A stretch of DNA of 64,000 nucleotides. Origin: a virus. The notes under the pieces are model-generated. The model did no database searches. It worked only from the letters and a program-made list of their open reading frames with translations, and was not told where the DNA came from. How positions within the stretch are numbered: the stretch's first letter is position 1; each line of letters starts with the position of its first letter. Positions 4,335-46,400 of the stretch are shown in pieces. The DNA is taken from IMG/VR virus record IMGVR_UViG_3300028883_000049, positions 1 to 64,000 of that record; one strand, given 5' to 3'. The position numbers and the translations under genes were made by a program.

Positions 4335-5021
4335 ATGCGCACGATTATTTCCCTGTTTCTACTGCTGTCCGTTGCATCCGTATCCCATGCCGCTGTGATC
4401 GATGGCGTCCCGTCATGGCAAACAAACGGCGGGGCAGGGGCCGGAGCGCTGCAAATCCTCGGCTGGTACGATCTTCACGGCTACGACAACCTGTTTGCCG
4501 CCGAAGGCGAAAATATCTACACCCAGGGCGCTCTGCTCGCTGAACTCCAGGATTTCGACAGCTTCCTCAACATCAATCAATGGGGCGGCGTCGATGGCCG
4601 GGACATTCCCCCGGCTGTCGAGGACTTTGCAGCGTTCAAGGGCTACAACTTTGCCGCCGAATACATCACCTTTTTCTTCTTTTCCTTTGAAGATTTCATG
4701 GCCGAAATTGACGCTGGACGCCCGGTCAGCATTACCACGGACAACACCGAAACAGGATTTATCCCGATTGAAGTGGCAGGTGTCGGCTATGACATGATCG
4801 ACGGAGTTCCTCATTATGGGTTTATTTCCTCTCTCACTGGGCTGACCGATATCATCTGGAAACCATGGATCGAAGGATCGACCGAGTACGCTTGGGGAGT
4901 CACGGACGTCATGACCATCGCTCCACAAGCCGCCCCGGTCCCTGAACCATCGACCGTACTTCTGTTCAGTGTTGGAATCATTGGATTGTCCCTCCGATGG
5001 AGACTGCGCCAACCTTCTTAA
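4335..5021 (+). CDS. secreted PEP-CTERM protein (moron), copy 1
   Basis: 228 aa. Sec signal peptide at residues 1-19 and a C-terminal PEP-CTERM signal: VPEPST, a hydrophobic helix, then an Arg-rich tail. Host exosortase would be expected to process it and release it to the cell surface or exopolysaccharide. The middle (VPSWQTNGG...LQILGWYDLHGYDNL, and VPHYGF) looks like a C39-type papain fold, but the position where CGPTA-like active-site sequence is expected reads GGAGAGA, so it would be inactive. Start at 4335 with GGAGG upstream. It is the only plus-strand gene inside the late block, has its own promoter, and overlaps the 3' end of the convergent fibre gene by 44 nt. Confidence 0.8.
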   Translation: MRTIISLFLLLSVASVSHAAVIDGVPSWQTNGGAGAGALQILGWYDLHGYDNLFAAEGENIYTQGALLAELQDFDSFLNINQWGGVDGRDIPPAVEDFAAFKGYNFAAEYITFFFFSFEDFMAEIDAGRPVSITTDNTETGFIPIEVAGVGYDMIDGVPHYGFISSLTGLTDIIWKPWIEGSTEYAWGVTDVMTIAPQAAPVPEPSTVLLFSVGIIGLSLRWRLRQPS

Positions 5022-7017: not shown

Positions 7018-9172
7018 GGATGGCAACCCCTATCGCGACGTTACCTCCAGAAGCAGAAGTAAATGTTTTTGAAATGCTTCCTGACAAACCTGTTTGGTAG
7101 TATGCGCCGAGCGATGAACTGCCAGAAGAGTCATAACTTATCTGCGTCAATCCGTCATAATCACTCAAAGATATGCCTCCATCATCTGACCCAAAAAGAC
7201 CTATAAATATATCAGCTGAAGAAGTTGTTACCGAGCCTGTGCTAACTGTCCCTGTCGCTGTGTTGGAGTTGTAGCCGCTTATTGACCAAGACCCTGATGT
7301 CTTTGAATATCGAGCAACAACAGCATTCAAATATGTCCCACCTGTTTGTCCAAATGTGTAATCAGTTGGCTCGCTACCAGTTGCAATTTTGTAGGCAGTT
7401 GTCATGTTTGATGATCCGTTAGCAATGCCACCAGATGTAATCTCTGTGTAGCCATCAAAGGTATCCCAAGCCCCTGACGCATCGCTCACAAGATAAGCAA
7501 ACAGCAAATCGCCTTCTGTTGTACCCGTTGGTTTTGTCACTGTAATTGATTCAACACCGCTGCTGGTGGCATTGGCGGCGTAGCTTTCATAGGCTAAAGT
7601 AACGCTCCCACTCTGCGTACTGTTATTCGTCACGCTCCCACTGGTGATCGAAGCAAGGTCATCCCCTGCAGAGTCTTCCCAACCGTCCCCAGGTTGTGTG
7701 TAGTCAACGTCACATGTATCGCCGCTATTAACTGTCGAACCGAGGGTATAAACAAGCGTGTCTGTCGTATCTCCGCTTGAGTAGGTCATGGTTATATCTG
7801 TTCCGGCTGTCGTACAATCGAGATTCCATCCACCATTTCCACCAGTACCGATAGTGATTGCTTCGGACGCAAGCAAGGAGATTGTCGCTCCGGTCGTTGG
7901 GATTGTGGCGCTGGTCAGCGTTGGTGGTGTTGGTGTTGGATTCGACCAGTCGGCAAATGTGACCGGGTAGCGATCCCATGAGTCTGTTGATTCGCAGAGA
8001 TAGATATAACTGGTGTCGAATGATCTTTGTCCGGTCGTGCAAGTATCATCACTGTAAGTCGGAGCTGTGACATAACCAGATCCAACAGATACAGCGTCAA
8101 CCTCGTCTTTTAGCTCTTCAATCGCGGCTTGGACATTGGCCGATGTGATTGTCAAATAGGTTGTAAATGGCACTTCACCAGCATTCTGATCATCCGTCCC
8201 CGCTGATAAGGGAGCCCAACTCGATCCGTTGTAGATCTGGAATACAAACGATGAATCGAGGTAAACATCTCCAGCGGAGGGCGTGAATGTTGGCGCGATT
8301 GAATTGTAGAAATTAGCGTAATGCTCACCGTCTGAAGCGGAACTCTCAAAACTCGGGGCCGATACCGCACCGGTGAAAGTTGCTCCGGTTAAGGCTGCAT
8401 AAGTGCTATCATGATTATGGCTCAGTAAACTGTAAAACCCAGCATGATCGCCCCAGCTAAAAGCGGTATCCCAATTAACCTCCTGTGTCGGCGTCGGGAA
8501 AACTCTCGTTGCGGTTTCAGCCAGATCATCAGCATCCAGCACAACCACGCCGGTCTGTCCGTTGACCGAATCGACAGCGCCAGATCCGGTCATGTCAGCG
8601 CAGGCCCAAACAAACCCATCCCACGCGGCCACCTGGCTGGCCGTACAATTCAGATTTTCGAGTGTATCGGTCGTATCAACAATTGTGTTCGGATCGGCAC
8701 AGGTCCAGGCACCAGCATCCTTATAGGGCACCTCACCATCGACACAGGCAGGCAGTGAGTCGCCACCACTGGTTTTCCAGTCTGTTCCAAGCACAGAATC
8801 AATCGCGGCAATGATCTCGGTCGGTGTCATATCGCCGGTCGCGTTCGCTTCGATTGCATTGAGTTTTGACAGTAGGTCATTAGTCAGAGCGTTTGTGTCG
8901 GCTTCACCCTCATAAGCCGTTTTGATACCAGACCCGTAAGCGTCAACAATGGTCTGCACAGCCGTTTGGATATCGCCGGATTCGATCAGGGCGAATATTC
9001 GCGATAGCGGGACCATGTACCTGGAGGTCGAATCTGCCGAGGCAATAACACCGGTTGCGACAACCGCGCTATAGTCCCGCTGCTCCCAATCGGTCGGGGC
9101 AATCTCATTCGTTTCGGCAAAAACCGAACCCGCAAACAAACACATCAAAAAGACAATAAACAGTTTTTTCAT
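7007..9172 (-). CDS. tail-fibre-like protein with signal peptide, copy 1
   Basis: 721 aa. Starts with a clear Sec signal (MKKLFIVFLMCLFAGSVFA). It continues with fibre-type repeats (VNGQTGVVVLDADDL, SHNHDSTYAALTGATFTGAV), a short segment of the YLDSSFVFQIYNGSSW type seen in phage fibres, then Thr/Ser/Gly-rich beta domains to the end. The motifs are those of phage tail-fibre proteins; the signal peptide would instead send it to the periplasm. The start is set at the MKK methionine; upstream in-frame codons lack an RBS. Its C-terminal 420 codons are duplicated at the right end of the window. Confidence 0.7.
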   Translation of the reverse strand: MKKLFIVFLMCLFAGSVFAETNEIAPTDWEQRDYSAVVATGVIASADSTSRYMVPLSRIFALIESGDIQTAVQTIVDAYGSGIKTAYEGEADTNALTNDLLSKLNAIEANATGDMTPTEIIAAIDSVLGTDWKTSGGDSLPACVDGEVPYKDAGAWTCADPNTIVDTTDTLENLNCTASQVAAWDGFVWACADMTGSGAVDSVNGQTGVVVLDADDLAETATRVFPTPTQEVNWDTAFSWGDHAGFYSLLSHNHDSTYAALTGATFTGAVSAPSFESSASDGEHYANFYNSIAPTFTPSAGDVYLDSSFVFQIYNGSSWAPLSAGTDDQNAGEVPFTTYLTITSANVQAAIEELKDEVDAVSVGSGYVTAPTYSDDTCTTGQRSFDTSYIYLCESTDSWDRYPVTFADWSNPTPTPPTLTSATIPTTGATISLLASEAITIGTGGNGGWNLDCTTAGTDITMTYSSGDTTDTLVYTLGSTVNSGDTCDVDYTQPGDGWEDSAGDDLASITSGSVTNNSTQSGSVTLAYESYAANATSSGVESITVTKPTGTTEGDLLFAYLVSDASGAWDTFDGYTEITSGGIANGSSNMTTAYKIATGSEPTDYTFGQTGGTYLNAVVARYSKTSGSWSISGYNSNTATGTVSTGSVTTSSADIFIGLFGSDDGGISLSDYDGLTQISYDSSGSSSLGAYYQTGLSGSISKTFTSASGGNVAIGVAIHAE

Positions 9173-9338: not shown

Positions 9339-9672
9339 GAGCACCGCTCCCCTCTCTCACCCGCGCAAAGATAGAACCCAACCGGAACCAGCTGCTGGAC
9401 GTCCCCTGGTCGGTTAGAACATCAACCTGAGTCGTTCCCGCCTCATCTCCGGCAGCAACGTCAACCACAATCGCCGGAGTCACAGCATCGACCGAAATAC
9501 CCCCGTACAACAACGATCCATCAGCCTGTTTTGCTGGTGCCGAAAATGACCAGCCGCTGATATCCGGTGCCGATTCCCCAGACGGCGGAACCAGGACAAT
9601 TCTCACGCGGATATTTTCATTGGTGTGAACCTTCGGGCGTACCTTGAACGCTCTATACTCGTCATAGTCCAT
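9331..9672 (-). CDS. phage structural-region protein, 113 aa
   Basis: Beta-rich protein (IRVRIVLVPPSG, then DISGWSF) of the kind found beside phage fibre genes. It directly follows the glycosyltransferase gene with a 1-nt overlap. The N-terminal sequence and size resemble small phage proteins with an immunoglobulin-like fold. No specific function. Confidence 0.6.
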   Translation of the reverse strand: MDYDEYRAFKVRPKVHTNENIRVRIVLVPPSGESAPDISGWSFSAPAKQADGSLLYGGISVDAVTPAIVVDVAAGDEAGTTQVDVLTDQGTSSSWFRLGSIFARVREGSGAHD

Positions 9673-11198
9673 CAGTGTCCCCTCTTCCAGTTGCGGTAAA
9701 CCTTTTTCACCGCGTCATAAATCGTGTCAGCCGAAATATTCACCGCGCATCTGGCCGCGCCCGACATCTCATCGATGTTGCAAAACGCGTCGCCGTAATG
9801 CAGCCGGTGACACGGATAGCACGGGCATTGTTCCGGTGTTAGCGCCTGCACGTTCGACCAGTGTTTGGTCAAGTTATTTTTAGATGAATGCGACAGCATG
9901 ATCACCTTGTGCGGCGTCTTTTCCATACCAACCGCGTTCAGCACGCCCGTTTCAGGCCCGATCACTAGGTCAACGTTCTGCGCCAGAACCAGAGATTCAC
10001 GGATTGTCAGCTCACCCGAAAGACACGAAACCCGACCCTCGTTTTCCCAACCCTGCTCAAGGACCCGGCACTTATCATCACCCACCAGGTAAATCTGAGC
10101 ATCCGGCATCTCCAGCAGAATACGTGCGATCACCGTGTCCTGGTGTGGTGTAAACTTATGGATCGAACTCCCGGCCAAAGCCCACACCACGTTAAATTCA
10201 TTTTTGTTTAATTGCTGCTTGGCAAAAAACTCTTCTTCCCGTGCGGCATAAAAAAGCTGCGTTACCTCAAACTCCACCCCGGCCAGTTGACAGGTCCATT
10301 CGTGATAGTTCAGGTTCATCCGCTTCTTGCGCACATCATGCGGCCAGGTATGATTCGGTCGTCCCGGTATCGCCAGCAGCGTTCCCTCAATTGATTCAGA
10401 CAGGTTGATAAATTTAGCAAAGCGCTTTTCCTGCTCTGCCCAAAATGCTACCAGCTCATTGTTTGGAACCTGATCCTGATCAACGATATACCAGTCATCA
10501 ATAAAAGGATCGTTGCGTAAAACGTTTTGCCCCTTCGGCGTGGTCATCACCGTCACATGGTATCCCTGCTCTTTTAAACGCGGGAACACCAGCGCCGTCT
10601 GCAGCATATCGCCGAACCCGCCGAACCGGCAGACGCAAACCTTCGGTTTATTCGGCTCGCCGATTCCCGGCTTCACAACCATATCCATCCCCGGCTCAAG
10701 CTTTTGATAAGCCTCGAACAGGCTGTACTCGATTCCACCGCTCCGCTCTTCGCATTCGACTTGTTGCCATGCCCCCTCCAGCAACTTTTCGATATCGCCT
10801 GGATAGATATCGTGCTTATGGTCCGGATTCGCTCCCGGCTCCCCGCACTTCGGATACAGGTTCGCGCTCGGCACGTACAGGCACAAATACCCGCCCGGCT
10901 TGATCACCCGGCCCCACTCGGCCAGCGCCGCGCCCATATCCGGCATGTGCTCCAGCAAATGCGACGTGAAAACAAAGTCCAGGCTGTCATTCGCAAACAT
11001 CGATAAGTCATCAGCCTCGGACACGATATCCGCCGCGCCCTGACCGAAATGGTGCCCATTGTCGATCCCGATAAAATGCGGATAGGCTTTTTCCATGCCA
11101 CAGCCGATCTCCAACCCCCTTCCCCTGGTATACCGGGGAAGAAGGTATTTGATCTTGCGACTTTCAAAACCCTGCGGACCGTCAATTGACCAAGACAT
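9672..11198 (-). CDS. SAM methyltransferase-GT9 glycosyltransferase fusion
   Basis: 508 aa. Residues about 1-165 form a class I SAM-dependent methyltransferase: LEIGCG motif I, GIDNG, FTSHLLEHMPD and IKPGGYLCLYVP. From about 185 the protein resembles glycosyltransferase family 9 (ADP-heptose:LPS heptosyltransferases): CRFGGFGDMLQTALVFPRLKEQG is the acceptor-side start, and WALAGSSIHKF plus DLVIGPETGVLNAVG the nucleotide-sugar side. Cys residues cluster near the end (CPCYPCHRLH). It sits inside the structural operon between capsid and fibre genes. With the gmhA-hldE-gmhB cassette at 25-28 kb it suggests transfer of a heptose, perhaps methylated, to a virion or surface acceptor. The acceptor is not known. 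Confidence 0.85.
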   Translation of the reverse strand: MSWSIDGPQGFESRKIKYLLPRYTRGRGLEIGCGMEKAYPHFIGIDNGHHFGQGAADIVSEADDLSMFANDSLDFVFTSHLLEHMPDMGAALAEWGRVIKPGGYLCLYVPSANLYPKCGEPGANPDHKHDIYPGDIEKLLEGAWQQVECEERSGGIEYSLFEAYQKLEPGMDMVVKPGIGEPNKPKVCVCRFGGFGDMLQTALVFPRLKEQGYHVTVMTTPKGQNVLRNDPFIDDWYIVDQDQVPNNELVAFWAEQEKRFAKFINLSESIEGTLLAIPGRPNHTWPHDVRKKRMNLNYHEWTCQLAGVEFEVTQLFYAAREEEFFAKQQLNKNEFNVVWALAGSSIHKFTPHQDTVIARILLEMPDAQIYLVGDDKCRVLEQGWENEGRVSCLSGELTIRESLVLAQNVDLVIGPETGVLNAVGMEKTPHKVIMLSHSSKNNLTKHWSNVQALTPEQCPCYPCHRLHYGDAFCNIDEMSGAARCAVNISADTIYDAVKKVYRNWKRGH

Positions 11199-11680
11199 TA
11201 AGCTTTTCCACCCTGTTGTAGATCCAGCTGTTCGTCAGTGCTTGAAGCCACCCCAACGTTTTTCTTTCCCCTGCTCGTGGTTTTCTTGTCGGTTTGTGCG
11301 GTCTCGTCCGCCTTAACATCAAGCTCATCGATCAGACCGTTCAAGCGCTTGATTTCAACCTCAGCCGTATCAAGCTGTCCCTGAACTTCAGCTTTTTCCG
11401 CATCGGCATTGTCCTTGTCGGCAACAGCCCGCTCAAGCTGCTCTTTCAGCTCAGCATTCTGCTTGCCAAGTTTTTCAATCTCGGCAACCAATACAGGGAC
11501 CTTGGCGTCATCGACAACCACGGGAGCCTGAACCTCAATCGATTCAATCTCCTCCTGCCCAGGCAGCTCTTTTCCTTCCACGTCGAACAGAATTCCGAAC
11601 TGCTCGTAGGCCGCACGACCACTGCCATAAACCTGGCCGTATGGTGCGTTTTTATCAAGCTTACGCTTTCCCTTTGCCAT
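11198..11680 (-). CDS. coiled-coil head-region protein, 160 aa
   Basis: N-terminal motif APYGQVYGSGRAAYEQ (about 12-28), then a coiled coil at about 60-120 rich in Glu/Lys, and a low-complexity Lys/Ser/Gln tail. Immediately downstream of the capsid genes and overlapping the fusion gene by one base. Probably a head-associated or completion protein, inferred from position. Confidence 0.6.
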   Translation of the reverse strand: MAKGKRKLDKNAPYGQVYGSGRAAYEQFGILFDVEGKELPGQEEIESIEVQAPVVVDDAKVPVLVAEIEKLGKQNAELKEQLERAVADKDNADAEKAEVQGQLDTAEVEIKRLNGLIDELDVKADETAQTDKKTTSRGKKNVGVASSTDEQLDLQQGGKA

Positions 11681-11981: not shown

Positions 11982-12920
11982 TCAGGCTGCAGAATCCCAC
12001 TTGACGATCCGCTCATCAGCAGCGGCCAGGCGGTTTTTCGCGTACCCGCCAAGGTAGTACCAGGCCACCCCGCGACTGCGGCCATAATCCCCCGGCAACT
12101 TACCGCGCACCTCTTCAGGCACCGCAATGCCCTCACTGGTCGCATCTTCACCGAAGAAGAAAATCCAGTCACTGCCCCCATTACTCCAACTCCCCTTGGC
12201 CACATGGGTTTGCTCCACATAGCGGGTGTTTTCATAACGTCCGATCTCGCCGTTCATGATCATCTGGAAACCCTGGGGCGTATACTGGTGTATCCCCTCC
12301 AGATCGTTCTTAAACGTGCGCAGCGTGGTCGGCCAGGCAATCCCCATATAATCGTCACCCATGTATGGCGGAATATTCCGCTCCTTCATCAGGTCGACAA
12401 TCGCTTTAGCATGGTCCTTGTTGAACGCCACATTGTTGGTTGCCGTTGCCGTCCCGTTCAGGGTCAGGGTTACGGCATCGGTCGCCGTTCCGCCGGTCGG
12501 CACAACCCGCAGCAAAGTGCTGTTCATCTGCGCGTGGTTAGCGATATCGAACGCCTTCTTCGCGTCGTTCTTCATCGCCGTGTTCACCAGGTTACGCACC
12601 GGGATCTCCGAAAGATCATCCAACACGCCAGTGTACGGTACGCTGTTCCCGTATTCCGTCACCGTCATGGTTCCCTGGGTGATTGTGAAGTTTGTTTCCG
12701 GCATGGTACTGGTTTCCGTCAACACGGTCCCCTGCGTTGCCACGTCAGAAACGACATCCCAATGAAAGAGCTGCCCTTTGTGCTTGCCGACTGCATCATG
12801 CAGACTGGCAAACTGGCGAAACTTCACCATCGGCTGCACCACGTTGCGCAGCTCTCTTGAAAGGTTTTTGGCGCTTAAATAACCGCCAAGGGTGTTTGTC
12901 ACCCAAAGCTGTCCAGCCAT
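11982..12920 (-). CDS. major capsid protein
   Basis: 312 aa. Gene order (terminase, portal, scaffold, this gene) and composition identify it as the coat protein, of the P22-coat/N4-gp56-like HK97-fold group. The start MAGQLWVTNTLGGYLSAKNL and segments such as SVPYTGVLDDLSE and DWIFFFGEDATSEG are typical of that group. The ATG at 12920 is preceded by AAGGAGG; an upstream in-frame start is not supported. The 110 bp upstream holds no gene, consistent with an independent strong RBS. Confidence 0.85.
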   Translation of the reverse strand: MAGQLWVTNTLGGYLSAKNLSRELRNVVQPMVKFRQFASLHDAVGKHKGQLFHWDVVSDVATQGTVLTETSTMPETNFTITQGTMTVTEYGNSVPYTGVLDDLSEIPVRNLVNTAMKNDAKKAFDIANHAQMNSTLLRVVPTGGTATDAVTLTLNGTATATNNVAFNKDHAKAIVDLMKERNIPPYMGDDYMGIAWPTTLRTFKNDLEGIHQYTPQGFQMIMNGEIGRYENTRYVEQTHVAKGSWSNGGSDWIFFFGEDATSEGIAVPEEVRGKLPGDYGRSRGVAWYYLGGYAKNRLAAADERIVKWDSAA

Positions 12921-13030
12921 ATTTCGTTCCTCCCTTCCGTCTCCCGACGGTAGCTTTGAAGGGCGCGGCCCGCCTTCGAGCCGCAACCCAATAGGTTTAC
13001 GTTAATCCGTCCGCCTCCCGGCGGTCGCTG

Positions 13031-24823: not shown

Positions 24824-25111
24824 TCACGAAAGATTCGGACTGTTCAGGCCGACAACTCCTCCAATTTCTTGCCGTAACGCCGGATGCATGAACAAACCAT
24901 ATGAAGTTTTGATCACGTTTCGGCTTGGAATTTCCTTTAAAACTCGCTTGGTTTTCACCCACGGCTGAAATGGCTCAACCACAGGATGCAATACCGGTTC
25001 GATCCACCTCTCACGAAAGGTTTTTTCAACTTCAACCTCAACCGTATCGGTTAAATAACGACTTTCAAAAACCGGAAGGTTTCTAAAATAACCACTTAAT
25101 CCTGGGTGCAT
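24824..25111 (-). CDS. conserved phage protein, 95 aa
   Basis: Starts MHPGLSGYFRNLPVFESRYL and ends with LFMHPALRQEIGGV. This outline is familiar from small proteins of many phages. It has no known function. Overlaps the GmhB stop by 16 nt, so it is translated with the heptose genes. Confidence 0.6.
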   Translation of the reverse strand: MHPGLSGYFRNLPVFESRYLTDTVEVEVEKTFRERWIEPVLHPVVEPFQPWVKTKRVLKEIPSRNVIKTSYGLFMHPALRQEIGGVVGLNSPNLS

Positions 25112-25620
25112 TTTTTCTCCTTATCCAAAGCAAAAAGAAAATCGACCGCCTCACCAAGACCATAAAACGGCCCATGATTATGAATCAGCAAAGGACAGCA
25201 CCCGGCCCTGATCCCAGCCTGAACATCCGACAATTGATCCCCCACCATGTACGACTGCTCCAGGTCGATCCCCAGACCCTTCGCCGCCTGCAGCAGCATT
25301 CCCGGTTTCGGCTTGCGACACTCGCAACCCTCGTTCGGACCGTGCGGACACAGATAAATCCCGTTTAACTCCACCCCATATTCCCGCAGCAGCTCACGCA
25401 TATGTTCATGCAGCGCGTCAACAGTCTCCAGGCTGAAAAAACCCCGCCCTATACCCGACTGATTCGTCACCACAACCAACAGAAATCCCGCATCCTGCAA
25501 CCGCTTTAAAGCCTCCGGTACTCCCGGCAACAGTTCAAACTTGTCCCGCTCGATCACGTAGCCGTTATCCACGTTGATCGTCCCGTCCCGATCCAGAAAC
25601 ACCGCCCGTCTACCCGACAT
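25096..25620 (-). CDS. gmhB: D,D-heptose 1,7-bisphosphate phosphatase
   Basis: 174 aa, HAD-superfamily phosphatase. FLDRDGTIN holds the nucleophile and acid Asp; VTNQSGIGRG is motif II. The zinc-site Cys lie in CPHGPNEGCECRKPKPG, which also gives the motif III Lys, and MVGDQLSDVQAG is motif IV. It removes the C7 phosphate of D-glycero-D-manno-heptose 1,7-bisphosphate in the cytoplasm. Length is normal for the family. Overlaps hldE by 11 nt. Confidence 0.93.
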   Translation of the reverse strand: MSGRRAVFLDRDGTINVDNGYVIERDKFELLPGVPEALKRLQDAGFLLVVVTNQSGIGRGFFSLETVDALHEHMRELLREYGVELNGIYLCPHGPNEGCECRKPKPGMLLQAAKGLGIDLEQSYMVGDQLSDVQAGIRAGCCPLLIHNHGPFYGLGEAVDFLFALDKEKKCTQD

Positions 25621-27019
25621 AACGCCTCACCACCTCGTCGATAATCCCGCTCGTCGATACCCCGTCCGTCAATGCAATCAAATCAACCCTGCCGCCATTC
25701 ATTTCGACAAACTTCCTTCCGACAACTTCATGATTTGCATAGTCCGAACCCTTCACCAACACATCGGGTTTCACCGTCTTGATCAGAACCAACGGTGTAA
25801 TTGCATCAAAAATCGTCACGTAATCCACGCAATCCAGCGCTGCCAACAGCTGCGCCCGTTCGCCCTGATTCAACACCGGTCGCTTACTGCCCTTCAACGC
25901 CCGTACCGAATCGTCAGAGTTCAAGCCCACAACCAGCACATCCCCACGTTTCCTGGCTTCTTTCAACAAGCGCACATGTCCAGCATGCAACAGATCGAAA
26001 CACCCGTTCGTAAAAACAATACGATCATTCCTCTTTCGATGGTTCGCCATTAAATCTCTGATCTTGCCAAAAGCAACAATCTTGCTCGCATGCTCATCGC
26101 TGAATCTCCTCAGCAAATCATCCGCCGTTATCGTGGCCGTCCCCACCTTGCCAACAACAATTCCCGCCGCCGCGTTCGCCAGTTCAGCGGCCTGGTGTAA
26201 CGACAAACCCGCCGCCAGACCAACACCAACGCACGCCAGCACCGTATCCCCAGCGCCAGAAACGTCAAACACCTCCCGCGCCTCCGCCAGAAAATGAGTC
26301 TCTGCATTGTCCGCCAACAATGTCATTCCATGCTGACCTTGCGTCACCAAAGCCGCAGAAATACCGACGGACAGATACTTTTCTCCAGCCAGTTTAAATT
26401 CCTTGGCGTTCGGCGTAATCAGCGTCGCCCCTTCATAGCGGGAAAAATCCCTCCCCTTCGGATCGACCACCACTGGGACATGAATCTCCTGACTCAGGCG
26501 AATAACCTCACTTAACACCCGATCCGTCAAAACCCCCTTGGCATAATCCGAAACCAGCACCACATCCACTTGTGGAAGAACTTTTTTAATGTAATCGAGC
26601 AGCAAACCTTCCATCCCGTCAGAAATCGGCTCTTTCTCATCCAAATCAACCCGAACAACCTGCTGATCCCCGGCAAGCACTCTGGTTTTAACCGTGGTCT
26701 CACGACGGACATCAACCAACAGTCCGTCGTGACCAACTCCACTCCGACTAAACAACAGCGGTAACATTAGCGCCCCATCGCCACGCCCCGTCACCGAAAC
26801 AATCTTCACCTTGCACCCCAGCGCCGCCAGGTTCGCAGCTACATTCCCCGCCCCACCAAGCCGGGTTTCCTCGCGCCGAACAGCCACCACCGGAACCGGA
26901 GCCTCAGGCGACACCCGATCCACCGTTCCAAAAATGTACCGGTCAAGCATCACATCCCCCACCACCAGCACGGATGCTTTGCGAACCCCGGTTAAAACTT
27001 TTTCAATATCTATTTCCAT
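25610..27019 (-). CDS. hldE: bifunctional heptose-7-P kinase / heptose-1-P adenylyltransferase
   Basis: 469 aa, full length for HldE. The N-terminal PfkB/ribokinase domain (about 1-320) has GGAGNVAANLAALG and the catalytic GAGDTVLA. The C-terminal cytidylyltransferase-fold domain (about 335-469) has FTNGCFDLLHAGH (the HxGH nucleotide-binding motif), NSDDSVRALKG and VKGSDY. It phosphorylates heptose 7-phosphate at C1 and, after GmhB acts, adenylylates heptose 1-phosphate to ADP-D-glycero-beta-D-manno-heptose. Normally an LPS-core gene; its location inside a phage early operon is unusual. Confidence 0.94.
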   Translation of the reverse strand: MEIDIEKVLTGVRKASVLVVGDVMLDRYIFGTVDRVSPEAPVPVVAVRREETRLGGAGNVAANLAALGCKVKIVSVTGRGDGALMLPLLFSRSGVGHDGLLVDVRRETTVKTRVLAGDQQVVRVDLDEKEPISDGMEGLLLDYIKKVLPQVDVVLVSDYAKGVLTDRVLSEVIRLSQEIHVPVVVDPKGRDFSRYEGATLITPNAKEFKLAGEKYLSVGISAALVTQGQHGMTLLADNAETHFLAEAREVFDVSGAGDTVLACVGVGLAAGLSLHQAAELANAAAGIVVGKVGTATITADDLLRRFSDEHASKIVAFGKIRDLMANHRKRNDRIVFTNGCFDLLHAGHVRLLKEARKRGDVLVVGLNSDDSVRALKGSKRPVLNQGERAQLLAALDCVDYVTIFDAITPLVLIKTVKPDVLVKGSDYANHEVVGRKFVEMNGGRVDLIALTDGVSTSGIIDEVVRRYVG

Positions 27020-27044
27020 AGATCAAAGCCTATAAACAGACACA

Positions 27045-27314
27045 TCAGGCAATGTGCCTACGATGAACAACGGCACTTTTAGGTATCACCATGTCGCCAC
27101 AACTTTGCTCCTCAGCGTGGATAAGATCGTTTGCCGGGGAAAGATGAGGGGCAAGAATTATGGCTTCATCAGTTTCCTTTAATATCCATCCGACTGAGAA
27201 GCAGCGGTGTGCATGAGGTTCTGCAGCTTCGGTTTCGCGCCACTCAGCACTCACGCCATAACTGTCCCGCCATTCCAGATACACAAGTTCATAATGACTA
27301 ACAAGCACATTCAA
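27045..27314 (-). CDS. conserved phage protein between gmhA and hldE
   Basis: 89 aa if started at TTG 27314, which overlaps the gmhA stop and has AAAGGAGGAA upstream. The core YGVSAEWRE...HRCFSVGWILKETDEAIILAPHLS is a pattern I associate with small phage proteins. Biochemical role unknown; it is not a known heptose-pathway enzyme. Confidence 0.6.
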   Translation of the reverse strand: MNVLVSHYELVYLEWRDSYGVSAEWRETEAAEPHAHRCFSVGWILKETDEAIILAPHLSPANDLIHAEEQSCGDMVIPKSAVVHRRHIA

Positions 27315-27907
27315 ATCCGTTCCTCCTTTAGTTTGAACATCCGCTCCTCGATCAGCTCGCACAAAATATGGATAATCAGAATATGAACTTCCTGAATCCG
27401 TGCCGGGTCCATCGACGGAACCACCAGCGGGTGTTCAACCATCTGTGCCGCCATCCCGCCAGCTTTCCCCAGCAAACCAAAAGGGACGCAGTCCATCCTG
27501 TTTGCCGCATTCAACGCCAGCAGAATATTCTCCGATTCCCCGCTCGTCGAAATCACAAAAACAATGTCACCCGGATTCGCCAGCGCCTCCACCTGGCGTT
27601 GAAAGATCCGGCTGAAATCGTAATCGTTGCCCACCGCCGTCAGTGTCGCCACATCAGCATTCAGACACACCGCAGGCAAAGCCCCGCGCTCGCGCTTAAA
27701 GCGTCCCACCAGCTCCGCCGCAAAATGCAGAGCATCCGCCGCCGAACCGCCATTCCCCATAATCAGAATCTTCTTCCCCGCCAGGATCGCATTACCCATC
27801 TCTTCGGCCACAACCTTGATCGCAGGCGACAACTCCGCCGCTGTCCGTCTCACCGCTCGGCCATGCTCACCCATCACATTCCTGATCCATTGCGTTGTGT
27901 TATTCAT
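27311..27907 (-). CDS. gmhA: sedoheptulose-7-phosphate isomerase
   Basis: 198 aa, SIS-domain isomerase. GNGGSAADALHFAAEL and STSGESENI are the sugar-phosphate binding loops. Glu and His residues in HFAAEL and in EVHILIIH match the metal and catalytic positions of GmhA. It converts sedoheptulose 7-phosphate to D-glycero-D-manno-heptose 7-phosphate, the first pathway step. ATG 27907 overlaps the stop of a 21-codon ORF (ATGAATAA), so I prefer it to the GTG at 27949. Confidence 0.92.
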   Translation of the reverse strand: MNNTTQWIRNVMGEHGRAVRRTAAELSPAIKVVAEEMGNAILAGKKILIMGNGGSAADALHFAAELVGRFKRERGALPAVCLNADVATLTAVGNDYDFSRIFQRQVEALANPGDIVFVISTSGESENILLALNAANRMDCVPFGLLGKAGGMAAQMVEHPLVVPSMDPARIQEVHILIIHILCELIEERMFKLKEERI

Positions 27908-27965
27908 CCACATTTTCGACATCCATCGCATAAGTCTCTTTGCATCCACAAAGCGGACAGGCCAT
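27900..27965 (-). CDS. possible 21-aa leader peptide or truncated zinc ribbon
   Basis: MACPLCGCKETYAMDVENVDE with a CPLCGC motif. The stop overlaps the gmhA start. It may be the head of a degraded zinc ribbon or serve only to couple translation into gmhA. Confidence 0.3.
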   Translation of the reverse strand: MACPLCGCKETYAMDVENVDE

Positions 27966-27977
27966 CACCCATAACCC

Positions 27978-28421
27978 CTAACCCAACTCTTCAACCATCA
28001 AAGGCTCATACTGGTTAAACATTTTTTCGATCACCGGCAGAATAACCTTATCTCCAGCCTTCCTTGCTCTCTCAACGCAAACCAAAGGGTCTGTATCTAT
28101 CTCCATAAACTCAACTGACCACTCTTTACTGATCCACTCGGACCGTCTCTTAACCGTCGTATTTGTCGCATCAAGAATCACGGTCTTGTGTCCAGCCAGA
28201 AACAGAGACCTCACCATAGTCTTTGCAATCGCCCACACATGAGGCTCAGCCTCAGCAGAAAAACGCTGCCCATGAAGCGCCACACGAATCGAATCAGGGT
28301 TCACCATAGGAAAACCAAGCTCCTTCGCAGCCGTCGATTTGCCCGAATAAGGCAGACCGACCATAACGATCAAATAGCAGTTCTCAGGACAAATCTTCTG
28401 TGTCTTCAAGTTGCCACTCAT
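27978..28421 (-). CDS. P-loop kinase (polynucleotide-kinase-like)
   Basis: 147 aa. Walker A GLPYSGKST near residue 21, then NPDSIRVALHG and VILDATNTTVKRR, the signature of AAA_33/T4-Pnkp-like small kinases. Substrate cannot be told from sequence. It is the first gene of the heptose block and stands just after a structured, terminator-like region. It could phosphorylate a sugar or nucleotide in the same pathway, but may be an unrelated phage kinase. Start 28421 chosen for GAGGAG upstream. Confidence 0.7.
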   Translation of the reverse strand: MSGNLKTQKICPENCYLIVMVGLPYSGKSTAAKELGFPMVNPDSIRVALHGQRFSAEAEPHVWAIAKTMVRSLFLAGHKTVILDATNTTVKRRSEWISKEWSVEFMEIDTDPLVCVERARKAGDKVILPVIEKMFNQYEPLMVEELG

Positions 28422-28456
28422 CAACAATCTCTCCTCTGCGTTAAAAATAAAAAAGA

Positions 28457-28559
28457 TTTCCCCTGTTGCCGGGTTGTCGGTTTCGTCTCGTCCCTCAACA
28501 ATGCGACAACCACAATCTCTCAACGACGTCCCGGCAGCGCCCTTTGCGCCCAGGGGAAA
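28457..28559 (-). promoter_or_regulatory. structured leader or terminator ahead of kinase/heptose genes
   Basis: Perfect 9-bp arms 28457-28465 / 28551-28559 (TTTCCCCTG / CAGGGGAAA) enclose further pairings: 28468-28473 with 28530-28535, 28472-28479 with 28504-28511 (these two compete for two bases), and 28537-28549. On the minus strand the structure ends in a T-rich tract (TTTTTTATTTTT). It lies between the 54-aa gene and the kinase. It could be an intrinsic terminator or an attenuator controlling the heptose cassette; no known riboswitch consensus was recognised. Confidence 0.5.
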
Positions 28560-29483: not shown

Positions 29484-29681
29484 CTACCGGACCGCTCCGG
29501 CATCCGACCTTTCACCAACCAAGCGCCGGTCGAACCCCTGGAGGGGGGATAGAGGCTCGACCGGCTCACCCGCGCCCAAGCCAATGACCGCAGGTTTAAG
29601 CTTTTCCAATTCACACATCACACAACCCTGTCCGCGCCCAATCTTTCGTGGCTTCCCGCACCCTTCGCAGTAAGCAACCAT
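29484..29681 (-). CDS. zinc-ribbon protein, 65 aa
   Basis: YCEGCGKPR near residue 4 and GCVMCE near residue 19, then a Gly/Pro-rich tail. Starts at the stop of the DHH gene. Function unknown. Confidence 0.55.
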   Translation of the reverse strand: MVAYCEGCGKPRKIGRGQGCVMCELEKLKPAVIGLGAGEPVEPLSPLQGFDRRLVGERSDAGAVR

Positions 29682-30520
29682 CAGGAACGAACCGCCGTCT
29701 CAAGCGAAAACGGCAACTCCGCGCACGAAAACCCGGAGGCCCCGGCATGACCTCCGCCACCGTACTTCTTCGCAATCCAAGACACGTCAACCCCGTCCTT
29801 GTCCGCGTACAAAGAGACCTTCCACCCGCGTGGACCACAGCAAAACAGCATCTTGGCGTCGTGCTCTTCATCGTCGTAAAACGCATCCAGAGCCAGCGAG
29901 TTGGCATTACCCCGATTCAGCGCCGCAAACCGCAGACCCTCGAACTCCAGCGTCATGCCATAATCCCTGGCATAGCCATCGCTCAACTGCCGTTCGTACT
30001 CAAGCACGTTCCTCCCTCTCGACAATATTCCCAAGCAGTCGCCCTGTTGAAAAAGAAGCCCCCACATATCAACATTCTCAGGGTCCGCAAACATCAACCG
30101 CATCCCGTACTGAAACTCCAAAGCATCATCAACGTGATCCCACACGTCGTAACGCCCCAGCAAATAAACCGCCCTCGGCATCTGCTCCGATTCATGCAGA
30201 TATTCCCATGTCAGTTCGCAACCAGCTTTTCCGATCTCGCGATGACCGGCAATATTGGACAATCCCCATTCATCAGCATCCGCCATCGCCGTCTTATGAT
30301 GGTCGATCCAGATCAGATCAAACTCATTATTCAGCCGCCTCATGTCCGGCATGTCGAAACTGAAATCCACAATAAAAACAACCTCTCCAGGCTCAAGCTC
30401 ACTCCACGGCACAGGTTCGGCGTAGTCGATACCAAACAGTCGGCACTCGGGATATTTCAGTTTGACAATCGCCCCGCTACACTTCCCATCCAGGTCGCCC
30501 CGGTGATAAAAACACAACAT
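29681..30520 (-). CDS. DHH/DHHA1-family phosphoesterase
   Basis: 279 aa. HRGDLDGKCSGAIV, VDFSF and IDHHKTA are the metal-binding DHH motifs; GGGGHAGASGF near the end is the DHHA1 RNA/nucleotide-binding loop. Cellular relatives (NrnA-like) degrade short oligonucleotides, pApA or cyclic dinucleotides. In a phage it could recycle nanoRNA or destroy a cyclic-nucleotide alarm signal; the sequence cannot decide. Length agrees with a stand-alone enzyme. Confidence 0.82.
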   Translation of the reverse strand: MLCFYHRGDLDGKCSGAIVKLKYPECRLFGIDYAEPVPWSELEPGEVVFIVDFSFDMPDMRRLNNEFDLIWIDHHKTAMADADEWGLSNIAGHREIGKAGCELTWEYLHESEQMPRAVYLLGRYDVWDHVDDALEFQYGMRLMFADPENVDMWGLLFQQGDCLGILSRGRNVLEYERQLSDGYARDYGMTLEFEGLRFAALNRGNANSLALDAFYDDEEHDAKMLFCCGPRGWKVSLYADKDGVDVSWIAKKYGGGGHAGASGFSCAELPFSLETAVRS

Positions 30521-37462: not shown

Positions 37463-40400
37463 CTATCGATTATAAACCAGTTCCCGCCGGTTCGGTTTCG
37501 CCCGCAGCGCCCGGCGCAGTGTCTGCGACGTGATCGGCGACACTAGGATTCCACTTGGTGACTTAAGGATCTTACGATTAAATTTCACGATATCGCGCAG
37601 CACATCCATGCGCTTGTCGCTGGCGCGATAGCGTGCCAAAAGATCGGCCTTGCGGTCCTGCCAATACTGCTTGGCTCGTCTCGCATCCCAACGCTTCTCT
37701 GTTTCTTTTGACGGTTTCAGCGGCATAAACCCGAACGAACGGATTATTGCCTCTTTTGGCGTATAGTGCTGTTGTCTTCCGTCGCTGCCGAATATCGGTC
37801 TGCCGCTCATGGTCTCGGTGCCGTCAGCATACAGGCGGTAAGCTCGCATAATGTTGGCCATCGCTTCCGGCGACAACTGTTCAACCGCACGGTAGGCGTC
37901 ACCCTTGGCCGCAGCGTTTGAAGCATAGCGCACCTTCTGCGCCATACCTCCCCAGACGCCCGTCACCCGCTCAGCCAGGCTCTCATCATCCGGCGACAGC
38001 CAGGGGATATTCACCCCAATCGCCCGGCTGAAGTTCACCCCGCCCAACGCCGGAGCTCCGTGCAAAACAAAGTCCGCCACCTGGTCGCCGAAATCGACAT
38101 ACTGGTTCCCCGTCTCCCGCAACCACCTTTCCAGCATCCTCAATGGCCGCTCACCAAACATCCGTCGATACCACTTATCAAGATCATCCCCAAACGGCAT
38201 TGCCGCCAGTCCGCCGAACAACATCAGCGCCGTCAAGCTGCGCATGACCACGCCGAACTCCCCACGCGTCAAGCTGGTCAGCATCCCCAACAGATAGTTG
38301 TGCGTATAACTTTGAAAGGTATACAGCGTCCTCCCTAGCGGCCCCATCTTGCGCAGCATAGCCGGGACATTTTCTTTGCCGATCACAAAATGCACATCGT
38401 CGACAAAGCGTTCCGCCTTCTTCAACGCCTGCTCTTTTGTCATTCCTTTGGCTTTGAACACCCTGTAAGCCGCCAGCAAGGCAGGTTCACGGTTCCAGTA
38501 GGTCTCCACCGCCTGGAATGGGATCATCGCTTTCTCCGTCAACCATCGCAACCCGGACTGTCCCTTGCCCAGCACGCCGCCGTTATCATCCAGACCGCTC
38601 ATAGCCCGCACGTAATTGGCATGGCTGCGACCGCGCCGCAAACCTTCGTCCAAAACCCAACGCTCCTCCTCGGTCAGCACACCTTCCTTGCCTGCCTTCA
38701 TCAACAGATGATCTTTGATCACGTCTCGTTGTGCCGCCAGGAGTCGACGCGTCGCCCGCTTGGTGTAACTGGACAGCTTAGCCTGACCCCAAACATAATT
38801 CTGCGTTGCGTTCAACATTGCCGAAGACGCCTTGAATCCAAGATACATCAATGCCGCAAAGCTCCGAGCCGTGCCGAACCATTGATCAATATAGGTCGAA
38901 TTCTTCAATGCATCGTCCACATACTCGCGCACCCAAACTTTATCGTTCGGCCTGTCTGCCGGAATCTGGCCCATAAGCCGGTTGCTGCGCATAGCGAATT
39001 CACTCTTACTCAACCACCCGGCCATGCCGCCGACAAACTGTGCCATAATCCCCGGCACGTTCTCGGTTTCGTAACCCTCGATCAAGTGATTTGCCCGATT
39101 CAGCCGGTGCCGCCCGAAACCACGCGCCGATATCTCGTCCGCCAGAATCCTCAACACCTGGCGCTGGACCGATAAGCCGTCCTCAATGACTCCCGCATCC
39201 GTGGCCTTGTCGAACGCCTTGGACAACAGCCCCTCAATCGCCCGGTGAGAACCAATCCCCAGAAAAATTTCTTCAGGCGTCGCCCGGTTCGGCTCGACAA
39301 CCACTTCGTAAACCGCATCAGAGTCGAAGCTGTGCGGAATGTAGTCTTTCAGGTTTTTCTCTACTCTCCCGCGCAGGATGTTCGCTCCACCCTTGGTCTT
39401 GGCCGGTTGCATCCAGACTTCGGTAAACGTCCCGTCATCATCAACCTGATACACCTTGACGTGCTGTTCCCCATCCTTTCGAATACGTGGCATATAACCC
39501 TTGACCTTGCCCCATTGGCTCCTCAGCTTGGCCAGCTCACTGTCGTACTCCTGCACCCCAAGGTAAGCGTTATACAGCTCTTCCTTTTCCAGCATCGGGT
39601 GATCTTCACCCCTGGCCAGGATGTCTTTCAGCGTTTTGAAATATTTTTGGCTCCTGAAGTTTGCCGCCGTAACAATATCGATATTCGCCGCGTCAACCGC
39701 CACCCGAGCCTCGTCATACAGGTTCATGTACCAGTTGTCTTTCATGCTGTGATTCTTCTGGATCTCCACCTTGGTGCGGCCAGCCATGATATCCTCAACC
39801 AGGGTGTCGAAAGACGGCTCACGGCGAAACTTACCTAAAACTCCCTCAACGTCGGATCGGCTCTTCATAATCCGGCGATAAGCCCGCACAGCATGAATGT
39901 TCAGGTTGAACTTTTTCGCCAGAGCGGCCTTGGTCGGCTTTTCGTCCAGCAGCCTGACCAACTCGTCGTAATACTCCGTGCCCTCATACGGCACCAGGCG
40001 CAAACGCCCCAAGCGGTCGAACATCTCCTCAGAAGCATGTTCAAGGGTCTGGCGGGCGGCAAAGTACGCATCCTGAACCTTTTTCGGCACCGGCTTGCCC
40101 AGCGGATTTTTACTGCCCGATAGTTGCTCAGGCGAATAAACCGTTTCGTTGATATCACCCTCAACCATCAGCTTGTCGAACTGTTCGCGCTCCTCCTTTT
40201 TCGCTGTGTGCCAGAAGTCACGCACCCCTTCCAACCCGGCATAGCCCTCCTCCGGTTTCGCCGCCATGACCTCGTACTTGATCTCGTTGCCACGTGCCCC
40301 GCGCTCAAGCGCCAGCTCGTAAGCCTGCGTACGCCACTTTGACTTTCGACTTCCATAGTGCGGATTCGACAATACCCCGCCGATAGCCTGCTTCATCCGC

Positions 40401-43400
40401 TCCGGCATAAAGTCGCTCAACTTCTTGAACGGCAACCCTTTATTATCCGGCGTCATCTCGGCCATGAGTTTTTTGGCAGCGTCCATTTTGTCACGCAGCA
40501 TGAACTTGGCGGTTATTTCAACATCATCGTCGCTGAAAATAACATAGTTGTAATCCCCTTCGCCTTTGCCCCGGCTGGTTCCGTCAAGGTATTTTATTCC
40601 ACGGATACCGAGGGTGTGGAGGTATTTTGATGCAATTTGGTTATTACTGAACCCACCAATATCACCATAAGGGTCAAAGCCAGCAGTCTCTATCATTTTT
40701 TTCGCCCGCCCTGACGGGTTTCCTATTTCACGCGACACAAACCCATAAAAATCACTACCCCTGTGAGCATCGCTTATCGTCCCACCTGCAAATTCAGGGT
40801 GCCGCAAAAGCACGTCAGACACCTTCTTGCTTTGCTTACTCAGTAGTTCATCCCACAACAGATACTCCTCCTCTGAAGGCGCGAGTTCGACTTGGTAGAG
40901 GTTGCCCTTGCGTGGCTTTATGTCAAGATTTTTTGCAGCGCTAACCGCCGATTGATACATTTCTGCGTACTGTCCTGTCGGCATATCGTAATCACGAAGA
41001 TACTTATCAACGGATTTCGCTTCAGCAATTCCAGCCGTTACATTTTCAGCAATAGCCCTCATTGACGAATGCCGCGTAATATGTCCAGCCCTTTCCATCT
41101 CACGAACCATGTGCTCGACAACCATAAAGTGAGACATAAGGCCATCTGCTGTGTCCCACGCCGAATCAGAGAGAGCCTTTTTATAGTGCTCAGCCACCGC
41201 CCGGCTTGACGCAAAATATAAACCATACCCGTAAGCCTGTGCGCCTTCGCCTGTCCCGATATTGTCTGTGCTGAACCTGTCGAAGCTGTGCGGACTGCCA
41301 TGGTACGCCGCCGAAAACTTCGCTCCGCTAAGGGTCTTAACCAGCATTTCTTCGGTAATTCCTTTTTCCTTCAATTTTTCCAGCAGCAGATTCCCGTCCA
41401 CAGCAACCGCAGGACCGTCCTTCGACCAGGCTCCAACCTCGGCATAGGCCCGCGCTTTTTTCAGTAACAACGCCAGATCCGACTCGCCCAATTCGGCCAG
41501 AGCCATAAAGTTATTGCGCCGTAACCAATCCCGAATCATGCCAATAATTTCTTTGATCTTTGTGGCAATTTTGCCCTGGCTGTGCTCCATGGCCATATGC
41601 GCCAACAGCTCCTCCATCAGGGTCGCATGACGCACATCATCCGAATACCCGGCCTTGCGCAGAGCCTTAGCATAACGGTTCAACCTGAACCCGTACTTAT
41701 TGCTGATCCGCAACATTTCACCCGGCTTCAACATGCCGTAAAGCTCGATCATTTTGGCCTGCAGCGCCTCTCCGTCCTGCCCCATCATGGCAAACAAGCC
41801 GCCGTGTCCGTGCCATTCGTGAAACAGCACCTCCTCCAGCATTTTTTCGCTGGTGATACGATCTTTAACGATGTAGACTTTCCCCCTATGGAATACGCCA
41901 TGTATATCATTGGGGTTGCCGCCCTGCTTATTTATATCATCCTGAATCGCCGCCGGAAGATCGCTCGCCGTCGCCGCTATCACGAATCGTTTCCGGTTTA
42001 CACGCCCGGCAGTAATCCGAGCGAAAGCCGCATCGAATTCCACGTCAGAAAGAGTGACTGAAACACCTTTACTGACCTCGCCCCGTGAAAACATGGCGAT
42101 CCCGGTGTCCGTCTCTTTTGTTTCGAATGTCGAAAACAGCTTTTCAAACGCCTTGTTCACCGCCTTGCGCTCTTCACCTTCAGGGTACGGCCTGAACAAG
42201 CCTTCAGGGTAAATCGGAACAGGAACAGCACCGTGCGCATGGTACGCCAGGAAGTCGTTCCCGGCTTTTTGGTCCGCCAGCTTGTCTTCCACATAGGCCG
42301 CAAACGCCCGTGCCGCCAACTCATGCGGAGTCGACCAGTAGCTGTCACCACGCCCCTGGTCGGCAGCAACCGCCTGGTTTCTGAATTCCGTCGGCACGTT
42401 TTTAACTTTCGGAGTTTCCTCGCGAGCCTCTTTCAGTTGATTAATCCGCTCGCGATAAATCCGCATAGGTCCGGCCAATCGGCCAATCGTGTTGTCCCCG
42501 TTCTCGGAAAAGCCGCTGCGTCCGCGCACCGCCTTATAGATCGCGCTCATTTCATCCAAAACCGCGTTGGTCCGGCGACCGGATACAGACCAGCGTGAGC
42601 GCTGTTTTTCATTCAACACAAATTCTGTTTCAAGCGCCGTATTCGATTCGCCGTTGATCAACATCTCAGCCAACTGGTCGAACCTCGCCAACTGTTCTTC
42701 GCTCGCCGGTTTATTTTTACGTTTGTAATATTTCGGGTCGAGCGGCTTGGCCAGGTAATCACGGATTGCCTTTAACCGGTCCGCCAGATCCTGTCTCGAT
42801 CTGTCCACAAAGTCGTCGGCCCGCCGCGTATCCTCGACATAGGTTTCAGCCTTGTGTGTCATGGTTTTAATCAGATCCTTGTAGGCGTCCGCCAGCTCCT
42901 TCCTGGCCTTCGAACGATGTTCCGACAAAAACCCGTGCGACGCGAAAAGATAAGATCGATCCTGAGACGGATAAACCAGGTTGCCGCTTTTATTTTGCGT
43001 TTTTTCCGACTTCGCCTTGCTGTCCAGCCGCCCGACATAGTGATCCAGCGCATGGAACCACTCGTGCGCCAGGTGCCCGGCCCCGGCCATCTTGGTCAGG
43101 TTGATCACTGCGTATTGCGGTTCATAATGCGCTGCCGCACCAACAAGACCATGCCCCCGCGCCCCAAATGCCAGTGCCAACTCGCCATTCAGCGACACCG
43201 CCGCAGGCGGGATCTCCAGAATATCGGCCATGTCCAGCAACGCGTCATAGGCGTGGTTCATCACCTGTTGTCGCTCCTCCTGATTATTCCAGTTGCCAAA
43301 CTCTGTCGCCCTAAAACCGAACCGCTGCATAAAGTCTTCACCCGCAACGTCCCCTTTACGCCGCTCAACACCCGACCGATAAACAACCTCCGGCCTTGGC

Positions 43401-46400
43401 AATATTTCCTCGCCGAAATTCAACTTCGTGGTCAGGATATTCTCGGCATTCACGGCCATAAAGCGCATGGCGTCGTCCCGACTGTCGAACTCTTCAGGGA
43501 TCACGCGGACCCGCTTGCGGTCATTCACGTTACGATAAATCGTAAATTTTCCGTCGCCAACTGAATAAACTCGGTGTTTCTGAGCAGCAACCATCAACGG
43601 CAGAACTTCGTTCGCCTCCGCTTCGCTGTCGAAATACCTCCGCCCCATCGGGCTGGGACCACCCCACTTTGATTTTTTCCGCGTGTCGAAAAAGGCCCAC
43701 TTGCCGTTGTTTTCGCTTTCCACCATCTGCCCGTTGCGACGCACCACTTCATTTTCGATCTGCACCAGGTGATAGCGCGAGCGCCAGCCCTTCGACTGCT
43801 TTTTAGCGGCGGACTTTTTGCCGGTTTTAACCGCCAGGTCCTTCCGCGCCCCGCCGATCTTTTCGCCTAGATCGTCGATTTTCTGAATAGAGGGTTTTTT
43901 CTCAGTCCTCGAAGTAATAACCCTATCAATAAGAGTCTTTATTCTCGCCGTATCGGCCTTTTCAACCCCTCTTGCCTTTGCAACCATGCGAAGCTTCCAA
44001 TTCGCCAATTCCTCAAGATCTTCACGACTCCATTCTTTTTCTTCTATTTCATAGGTAAACTGAGCGTTTTTTTTCAGCTTATCTTGAAGATCAGCAACGG
44101 CCCCCTCCAACGTCGTTCCAATACCATTGCTGCCAGAGACGTTAATCTTTTCAGTTGGCGAAACAATGAAATAGTCCGGCGCATTTTCAAGATAGGTGAA
44201 GGCCACGCCAGCGAATAAACCACTTTCAAGCTCATGCCACCCTTTTATTTTTGTCTTTGAGTTTTTTGACGGCCAATAGATAACTCTTCCTTGCGCGTAA
44301 TCTTCCTCTTGAATTAGATAATAATCATCCCCGCGAAAATCCGTGTTGATGTCTTTTTCAAATTCAGCAAAGGCATCGTCAAGACGCTTCCTGTCCCACT
44401 TACTACGACCCTTCTTGCCATCATGGTCAAAAAATACGGATATCCCGATTCCAGGCCTTTCGTGTCCATATTCCAACGCATGTGCCATCTTCTTCAGGTT
44501 CATTAGTGCCCTCGGCGTATTCGATGGATTGGCCCCATCCTTAAACCCTCCAACGACAGGGATTCCGGCTGAGTCACTATGGCGCTTAACCTCTTCATGT
44601 AGTTCGACAAGCTTTTCTTTAGCCTTTGTCTTCATGTTTTCAAGGCGGGAAACGTACTTCAGCTTGTTACTGACTACCCCTTCGCCCCTGCCCTCGCCAC
44701 GCCCTTCAATTGCATTGCGCAGCGCTTCCTCCGCAGCTTCATCATTCAAATCCTGCCAATAATCGTCCTCAACCAAGGAATCAATATCCTTTTCAGTCAG
44801 CCCGGCATTCACGGCCCGTTCGACCAGACCACGATCCAAGCGGTCGTATTTCCAGGCAATAGCATCAACAGGATGATCAACGGCATTGTTGGCCATAAAG
44901 AACGAATAAGCAAAACCCTCTGGCGTCACGCTCCTGGCGTTTTTCGTTGCCAAAGACTTGCCGCCATATTTTTTATGCATTTTCGAGCCCTCGGTCGGCT
45001 CAGTCGGGGAAACAGGCATATCCGCATTAAACCGCCCCCATAGCAGCGTCTTCTTTGTGTAGTCCTCACCTACGTGATTCGGGTCGAACGACAAACGCCA
45101 AGGCGGCAGCCCACCAAGCTTTTCAATCCTTCCAACCGGGTTTTCAATCGCCCAGATCGAAGGCTTGAAATGCTCAATCGTCGCCAGTGTCTGGTGAACC
45201 AGGGCAACAGATTTAGCTGTCCTCCCGTCAGAGTCCTTGGCCGCAAAGTGCCGCGCACCACTCACAGCAAAGTCGGTACAGGGGCACGCAGCCAGAACAG
45301 CATGAACATGCTTGCCGTCGAAAGACGCGAACAGATCATTAAAGAACTGGGTAGAAAACTCATGAACATCACCAACATTCACATCTCGATGATTTCCGTC
45401 CTCGTCCAGCAGGGTGTTTTTCATCAAATCCTGAATGTCAAAACGATAAACATCATACCCCGCCTGCTCCCAAGGCAATGACCACTCGCCGGACAAATCA
45501 AACAATGAAATAACAACCTTATCGCTGTTATCGTTTTTTCCCTTCTGTGACTCTTTACCCTGCTGAACGGCGTGATCTTCCCATGAACGGATTTTCTTCT
45601 CAGCATCCGCCCTGGTCATCCATCCGTGATCTTTAACATAAACCTTTACCTTGTCGTTCAGGCGAACAACCTCACTCTTTTTCGGCGGATCGAAGAGATG
45701 ATGAACTTTAAAATCACCTTCGACCTGCTGCCGCTGATATTGATTAAACTCATCAACAATTTCAGAAAGCTCGCGATCATCAACCCCCTCAGCTTGATGC
45801 TCAGGCGCGACAGACTTGTTCTTGTCCTCATCAAACAACGGACCTTCATCAACCTTCGCCTCATACCCCTCCAGAAACCGCTCCACATCCAGGCGATCTT
45901 TGGCGACGTAAACCTGATTCTCTTCTTTGTCGATAATCGGGTACGTTCCGTCCTTCTGCTTGCTGCGAACTTTCAACCCTTTACCTTTTGCGGTTTTTCG
46001 CAGTACCTGAATATGCTTCGGCTTTATTTGTTCCGCCTGAGAACTTCGACCTTCTTTTCCAGTCGCCTGATCATCTTCTGCCGAAACACCATCCTGTCCC
46101 GCTGTTTCCCCCTCGGCCACAGTTGCAGAATCAGCCACCACCTCAGCCTGTTCAGTAGAATTTTCATCCTTTGTCTTTTTTCTGCCCTCAATGACGGAGT
46201 CAATCAGCTGTTGATCGATAGGTTTTTTCCAGCCATATTCGTTCTGACGTCCATCTGAAAGAGTTGCGATCAAATCAAAAACCCGATCCCTGGTCTCATC
46301 AACAGGGATTCCGTGTTCAGTTTCTAATTTTTTCGTTATACGCTCGGTAAGATTTTCTTGAGCGTTATTAAGCGCCTCTTCTGAAAAATACAGGGCCGCC

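Follow-up and report, generated by a model that had tools for sequence, protein, structure and literature searches.

Phage genes for lipopolysaccharide (LPS) synthesis, such as those of cyanophages and pelagimyophages, are usually read as serving to modify the LPS of the host (PMC7029224, PMC9529941). Pelagimyophages carry rfaE together with glycosyltransferase genes (PMC7029224), and our literature searches on phage ADP-heptose pathways turned up just short mentions of rfaE and LPS genes. In bacteria, the protein heptosyltransferase TibC uses ADP-D,D-heptose as its donor and has an iron-binding finger formed by Cys 339, 342, 358 and 370 (PMC4358343). Virion glycosylation has been described in mycobacteriophages, where phage glycosyltransferases are thought to modify capsid proteins (Freeman et al. 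2023, as cited in PMC11256854); in phages of Gram-negative bacteria it is little explored.

We analysed a window of 64,000 bases from an IMG/VR phage record, in which genes for three ADP-heptose enzymes form a cassette. We give an even chance to the interpretation that this cassette feeds a capsid-linked GT9 enzyme which adds heptose, and perhaps methyl groups, to a virion protein. Heptose genes have been seen in phages before; the new part is the capsid-linked methyltransferase-GT9 gene, which lies outside the coordinates of the cassette.

The phage genome and its heptose cassette

The full record is 64,479 bases long and contains a direct repeat of 3,963 bp (99.87% identity, offset 55,725), with copies at 4313-8275 and 60038-64000. 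The left 4.3 kb of the record, which codes for a serine recombinase, a lipase and an SDH-type protease, is outside the repeat, and past position 64,000 the gap-free identity of the two copies falls to 294 of 479 bases. This structure suggests a circular or circularly permuted genome of about 56 kb, together with variation between strains or else a second junction. The phage encodes an integrase and so looks temperate. One gene within the repeated segment (4323-5021 and 60048-60746) encodes a PEP-CTERM sorting signal, an exported-protein signal that is uncommon in phages. A single giant protein of 3,737 residues (37463-48676) takes up 11.2 kb of the genome, and part of it has weak similarity to a 1,903-residue protein in the relative G001 (L097:14283-19994). 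ARAGORN placed a tRNA-Arg on the plus strand at 48542-48630, within the start of the giant gene; the call is possibly spurious, or else marks what remains of an attachment site.

The cassette lies between the terminase and integrase genes, downstream of a gene for a DHH-family phosphoesterase (phrog_4771, 29681-30520). Its ORFs are all on the minus strand, and adjacent ones either overlap or are 25-30 bases apart:

27978..28523, minus strand: P-loop protein, AAA_33, polynucleotide-kinase-like (profile searches)
27311..27949, minus strand: GmhA, sedoheptulose-7-phosphate isomerase, 212 residues from a GTG, true start possibly later (profiles, PDB, motifs)
27045..27362, minus strand: ORF of 105 residues between gmhA and hldE, overlapping the 3' end of gmhA
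25610..27019, minus strand: HldE, bifunctional heptose-7-phosphate kinase and heptose-1-phosphate adenylyltransferase, 469 residues (profiles, PDB, motifs, tree)
25096..25620, minus strand: GmhB, heptose-1,7-bisphosphate 7-phosphatase, 174 residues (profiles, PDB, motifs)
24824..25111, minus strand: ORF of 95 residues, overlapping the 3' end of gmhB

A first-pass annotation, made from the sequence alone, had reported GmhA, both domains of HldE, and GmhB together in this phage, and our profile, PDB and motif searches agree with it. GmhB exceeds the NCBIfam equivalog cut-offs of PRK08942 (197.5 bits; cut-off 178) and TIGR00213 (181.9; 149.6), as does the nucleotidyltransferase domain of HldE for TIGR02199 (191; 181.5). 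For its kinase domain, HldE scores at the cut-off of TIGR02198 (343.1; 345), and over its whole length slightly below that of PRK11316 (480.7; 521). The top NCBIfam models for GmhA are phosphoheptose isomerases, both scoring below the equivalog cut-off (195.8; 276, and 180.2; 209.45). The top PDB matches are 1tk9 for GmhA (1.9e-51), 3l8e and 2gmw for GmhB, and HldA (4e84) for HldE. All the expected motifs are present at the key residues of the three proteins: the catalytic E in HFAAELVGR and the catalytic H in IQEVH in the SIS domain of GmhA; GAGDT and HAGH in the PfkB kinase and nucleotidyltransferase domains of HldE; and LDRDGT and the zinc ligands C-x-H...C-x-C in GmhB, a HAD IIIA phosphatase. 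Judged by sequence, the three enzymes are intact and the cassette looks functional.

A TIGR02197 profile search found no HldD epimerase in the record, so the complete pathway to ADP-L,D-heptose is not encoded there, and the expected product is ADP-D,D-heptose, as the annotation had anticipated. Other parts of that annotation fared less well. It had a P-loop kinase leading the cassette; we rejected a sugar kinase role for this protein because it is polynucleotide-kinase-like (AAA_33), and it is probably outside the heptose pathway. The 'early operon' is a putative one, proposed from its place between terminase and integrase. The role of ADP-heptose as an innate-immune agonist, which had also been raised, gained no support from our analysis.

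The cassette belongs to the phage, as had been claimed: it is on one strand, in overlapping frames, flanked by phage genes, and its GC content (0.535-0.549) is like that of the terL, portal and MCP genes (0.505-0.564). Its HldE is divergent: no bacterial HldE in a sample of 198 genomes from the phylum of a Geobacteraceae MAG is more than about 50% identical to it. In a tree, it falls within the bacterial HldE group on a long branch (0.89), and most viral HldEs sampled form a separate clade apart from it. The long branch and the low identity indicate that the cassette is no recent host fragment, and together with the phage-like composition they led us to reject that origin. Misassembly, or capture of host DNA in which a host operon was joined onto the phage contig, is in our view very improbable: the imperfect 4-kb repeat near the record ends does mean that the end structure is not clean, but the cassette is distant from both ends, its frames overlap small phage-type ORFs, and its composition and HldE divergence are as just described. 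We found no independent contig of this phage that has the cassette in that position. A related phage is present in the Geobacteraceae MAG (locus L099; 81% identity in the capsid protein and 65% in the best segment of the methyltransferase-GT9 protein). The MAG also has chromosomal gmhA, hldE and gmhB genes clustered in the same order as in the phage, which makes it plausible that a host-type operon was captured long ago.

The methyltransferase-GT9 gene and its linkage to the capsid gene

A likely consumer of ADP-heptose, missed by the first-pass annotation, is encoded near the capsid gene:

11982..12986, minus strand: major capsid protein, a possible acceptor or a marker of the acceptor's module
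11198..11680, minus strand: 160-residue protein encoded between capsid gene and methyltransferase-GT9 gene, conserved in relatives over the initial ~36 residues
9672..11198, minus strand: methyltransferase (residues ~1-170) with a GT9-like heptosyltransferase domain (residues 183-508) (profiles, structure model, relatives)

The N-terminal part of the 9672-11198 protein matches Methyltransf_11. The C-terminal domain has no Pfam match, PF01075 (the Pfam GT9 family) included, and a single-sequence PDB search with it gave nothing useful. Its relatives are more informative: 15 of the 61 family members match PF01075, five orthologous ORFs score above the curated cut-off of that model, and the top NCBIfam matches of the family are LPS heptosyltransferases I, II and III. 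An AlphaFold model of the domain built from five sequences was poor (pLDDT 62.9), which an alignment of 61 sequences remedied (pLDDT 95.8), and this model has the GT-B fold of GT9 enzymes. Foldseek matched it to PDB structures with probability 1.00: WaaF (1psw, 5.6e-14), a Veillonella GT9 protein (3tov), WaaC (6dfe, 2h1h) and TibC (4rb4, 4rap). By hhalign the family is collinear with E. coli WaaF over 294 columns (P 5e-4), with a conserved GD motif aligned, and has no useful match to WaaC. Three residues are invariant in all 61 members (D15, after a glycine-rich start, K166 and E234), and the four cysteines of a C-x2-C-x9-C-x10-C motif are kept in 59-61 of them. In two divergent relatives, L239 (4834-7035) and L278 (4211-6409), the methyltransferase and GT9 parts are separate adjacent ORFs downstream of the capsid gene, which confirms that they are two modules. 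Relatives and predicted structure together thus point to a GT9-like C-terminal domain. The co-occurrence of heptose genes with GT9 genes that the annotation had suggested looking for is found within this phage lineage.

The linkage to the capsid gene was seen from both directions. A GT9 domain is encoded downstream, within about 4 kb, in 53 of the 58 testable IMG/VR loci that were selected by their capsid gene. Conversely, in nearly all GT9-selected viral loci whose upstream sequence is long enough, a capsid gene lies 0.2-2.2 kb upstream (4.4 kb in one), and the linkage holds in every methyltransferase-GT9-selected viral locus where a capsid match was found. In the loci we inspected, small Ser/Thr/Gly-rich proteins are encoded between the capsid and GT9 genes, and these are possible candidate acceptors. 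Among 50,697 catalogued phages, none matched the searched family members over their full length. Cultured Vibrio phages have a capsid protein 52% identical to this one; none of them matched the methyltransferase-GT9 query, and in one annotated Vibrio phage the 2 kb that follow the capsid gene hold nothing but short genes.

The top fold and profile matches, being LPS heptosyltransferases, fit the main rival explanation, in which cassette and GT9 enzyme serve to change the core of the host LPS in infection or lysogeny, for a superinfection block or for envelope upkeep. Serotype-conversion modules typically lie near attP, and the capsid-side position of this gene is unlike theirs. LPS modification is the customary reading of phage LPS genes (PMC7029224, PMC9529941) and would suit a temperate-looking phage with an integrase, but a GT9 gene that is fused to a methyltransferase and fixed next to the capsid gene over a broad phage clade argues against it, and we consider it unlikely, though a serious contender.

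Heptose genes in related and other phages

Four other GT9 carriers have heptose genes, all confirmed by NCBIfam: GmhA and a stand-alone adenylyltransferase (HldC) near SSB in G001, a stand-alone adenylyltransferase (HldC) in G029, GmhA between terL and portal in L140, and a stand-alone heptose kinase (HldA) between portal and scaffold in L157. The subsets and positions differ among carriers, so these genes were probably acquired separately. In a survey of the longer carrier records for these two genes, TIGR02199 matched in 3 of 44 and GmhA in 2 of 44; the family can thus do without a phage-made donor, and another sugar is possibly the one used. RmlA/GalU-type nucleotidyltransferases (PF00483) and NDP-sugar epimerases (TIGR02197) are each found in 0 of the 46 virus records of carriers. 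The recurrence of heptose genes and the lack of these other genes point to heptose as the donor, and the lack of them also speaks against LPS modification.

That most carriers of the GT9 gene are without heptose genes might instead mean that the cassette is independent metabolic or fitness cargo that supplies ADP-heptose to host LPS enzymes or drains sedoheptulose 7-phosphate and is unrelated to the methyltransferase-GT9 protein. HldE-like genes are indeed frequent in unrelated phages, and gmhA, hldE and gmhB are clustered in the same order in the Geobacteraceae MAG. We find this explanation rather unlikely, given that four other GT9 carriers also have heptose genes, at positions that are not homologous and that in two cases fall within the structural module.

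Relatives of HldE are encoded by at least 575 contigs of IMG/VR, and catalogued cyanophages have kinase, nucleotidyltransferase and phosphoheptose isomerase genes. The 50,697 records of INPHARED contain 11 GmhA-like and 86 nucleotidyltransferase-like matches, which serves as a rough yardstick only. The earlier remark that phage use of ADP-heptose is not standard therefore needs qualifying: such genes are already known from other phages, and it is the likely consumer beside the capsid gene that is new.

Proposed role and comparison with known systems

We propose that the ADP-D,D-heptose made through the cassette is the donor used by the GT9-type enzyme that the phage itself encodes immediately downstream of its capsid gene. 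The enzyme would move heptose onto the product of a late gene, the likeliest candidate being a virion protein such as the capsid or a head decoration protein, and the fused methyltransferase would then perhaps methylate the sugar or the acceptor. Related phages that do not have the cassette would take ADP-heptose from their Gram-negative hosts. ADP-heptose as the donor is moderately supported; the virion acceptor we infer from gene position and order only. Several points count against the proposal: the window's own GT domain is below PF01075 detection, membership of GT9 fixes neither donor nor acceptor, the best fold matches are LPS-modifying enzymes, and the cassette is in the non-structural half of the genome, with some 14 kb separating it from the GT gene.

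If true, the proposal would tie a classic LPS precursor pathway to modification of the phage particle. A conserved capsid-adjacent gene that hundreds of environmental phages carry would gain a testable function, and the acquisition of heptose genes by phages would have an explanation. Particles bearing heptose might adsorb differently, or differ in their stability or in how they are recognised. More tentatively, and with a little less than even confidence, we suggest that a large uncultured phage clade has a hard-wired, capsid-linked methyltransferase-heptosyltransferase putting (methyl)heptose on virions, with some members having their own ADP-heptose supply; this would be the first phage protein heptosylation.

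The bacterial GmhA-HldE-GmhB pathway, as in the Geobacteraceae MAG operon, has the same three enzymes in the same order with conserved motifs, whereas here they are phage-encoded, without HldD, with an extra small ORF between gmhA and hldE, and with an HldE at most about 50% identical. The LPS or heptose genes of cyanophages and pelagimyophages (for example P-SSM2 and P-SSM5; rfaE) are likewise phage-encoded heptose-nucleotide enzymes, but they occur in large T4-like phages; the phage studied here has an integrase and a genome of ~56 kb, and it combines GmhA, HldE and GmhB with a capsid-linked GT9 gene. The mycobacteriophage system belongs to actinobacterial phages, and the descriptions of it that we consulted report neither a heptose pathway nor a capsid-adjacent methyltransferase-GT9 fusion. 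TibC and its BAHT relatives share with the methyltransferase-GT9 protein a GT9-type fold, a C-terminal set of four cysteines, in the phage protein with a spacing reminiscent of the TibC iron finger, and the expected donor ADP-D,D-heptose, although none of the NCBIfam BAHT models matched the phage family. They have an N-terminal beta-barrel and an autotransporter substrate, in contrast to the N-terminal methyltransferase and structural-gene neighbours of the phage protein. The use of ADP-D,D-heptose by TibC fits the phage's missing epimerase.
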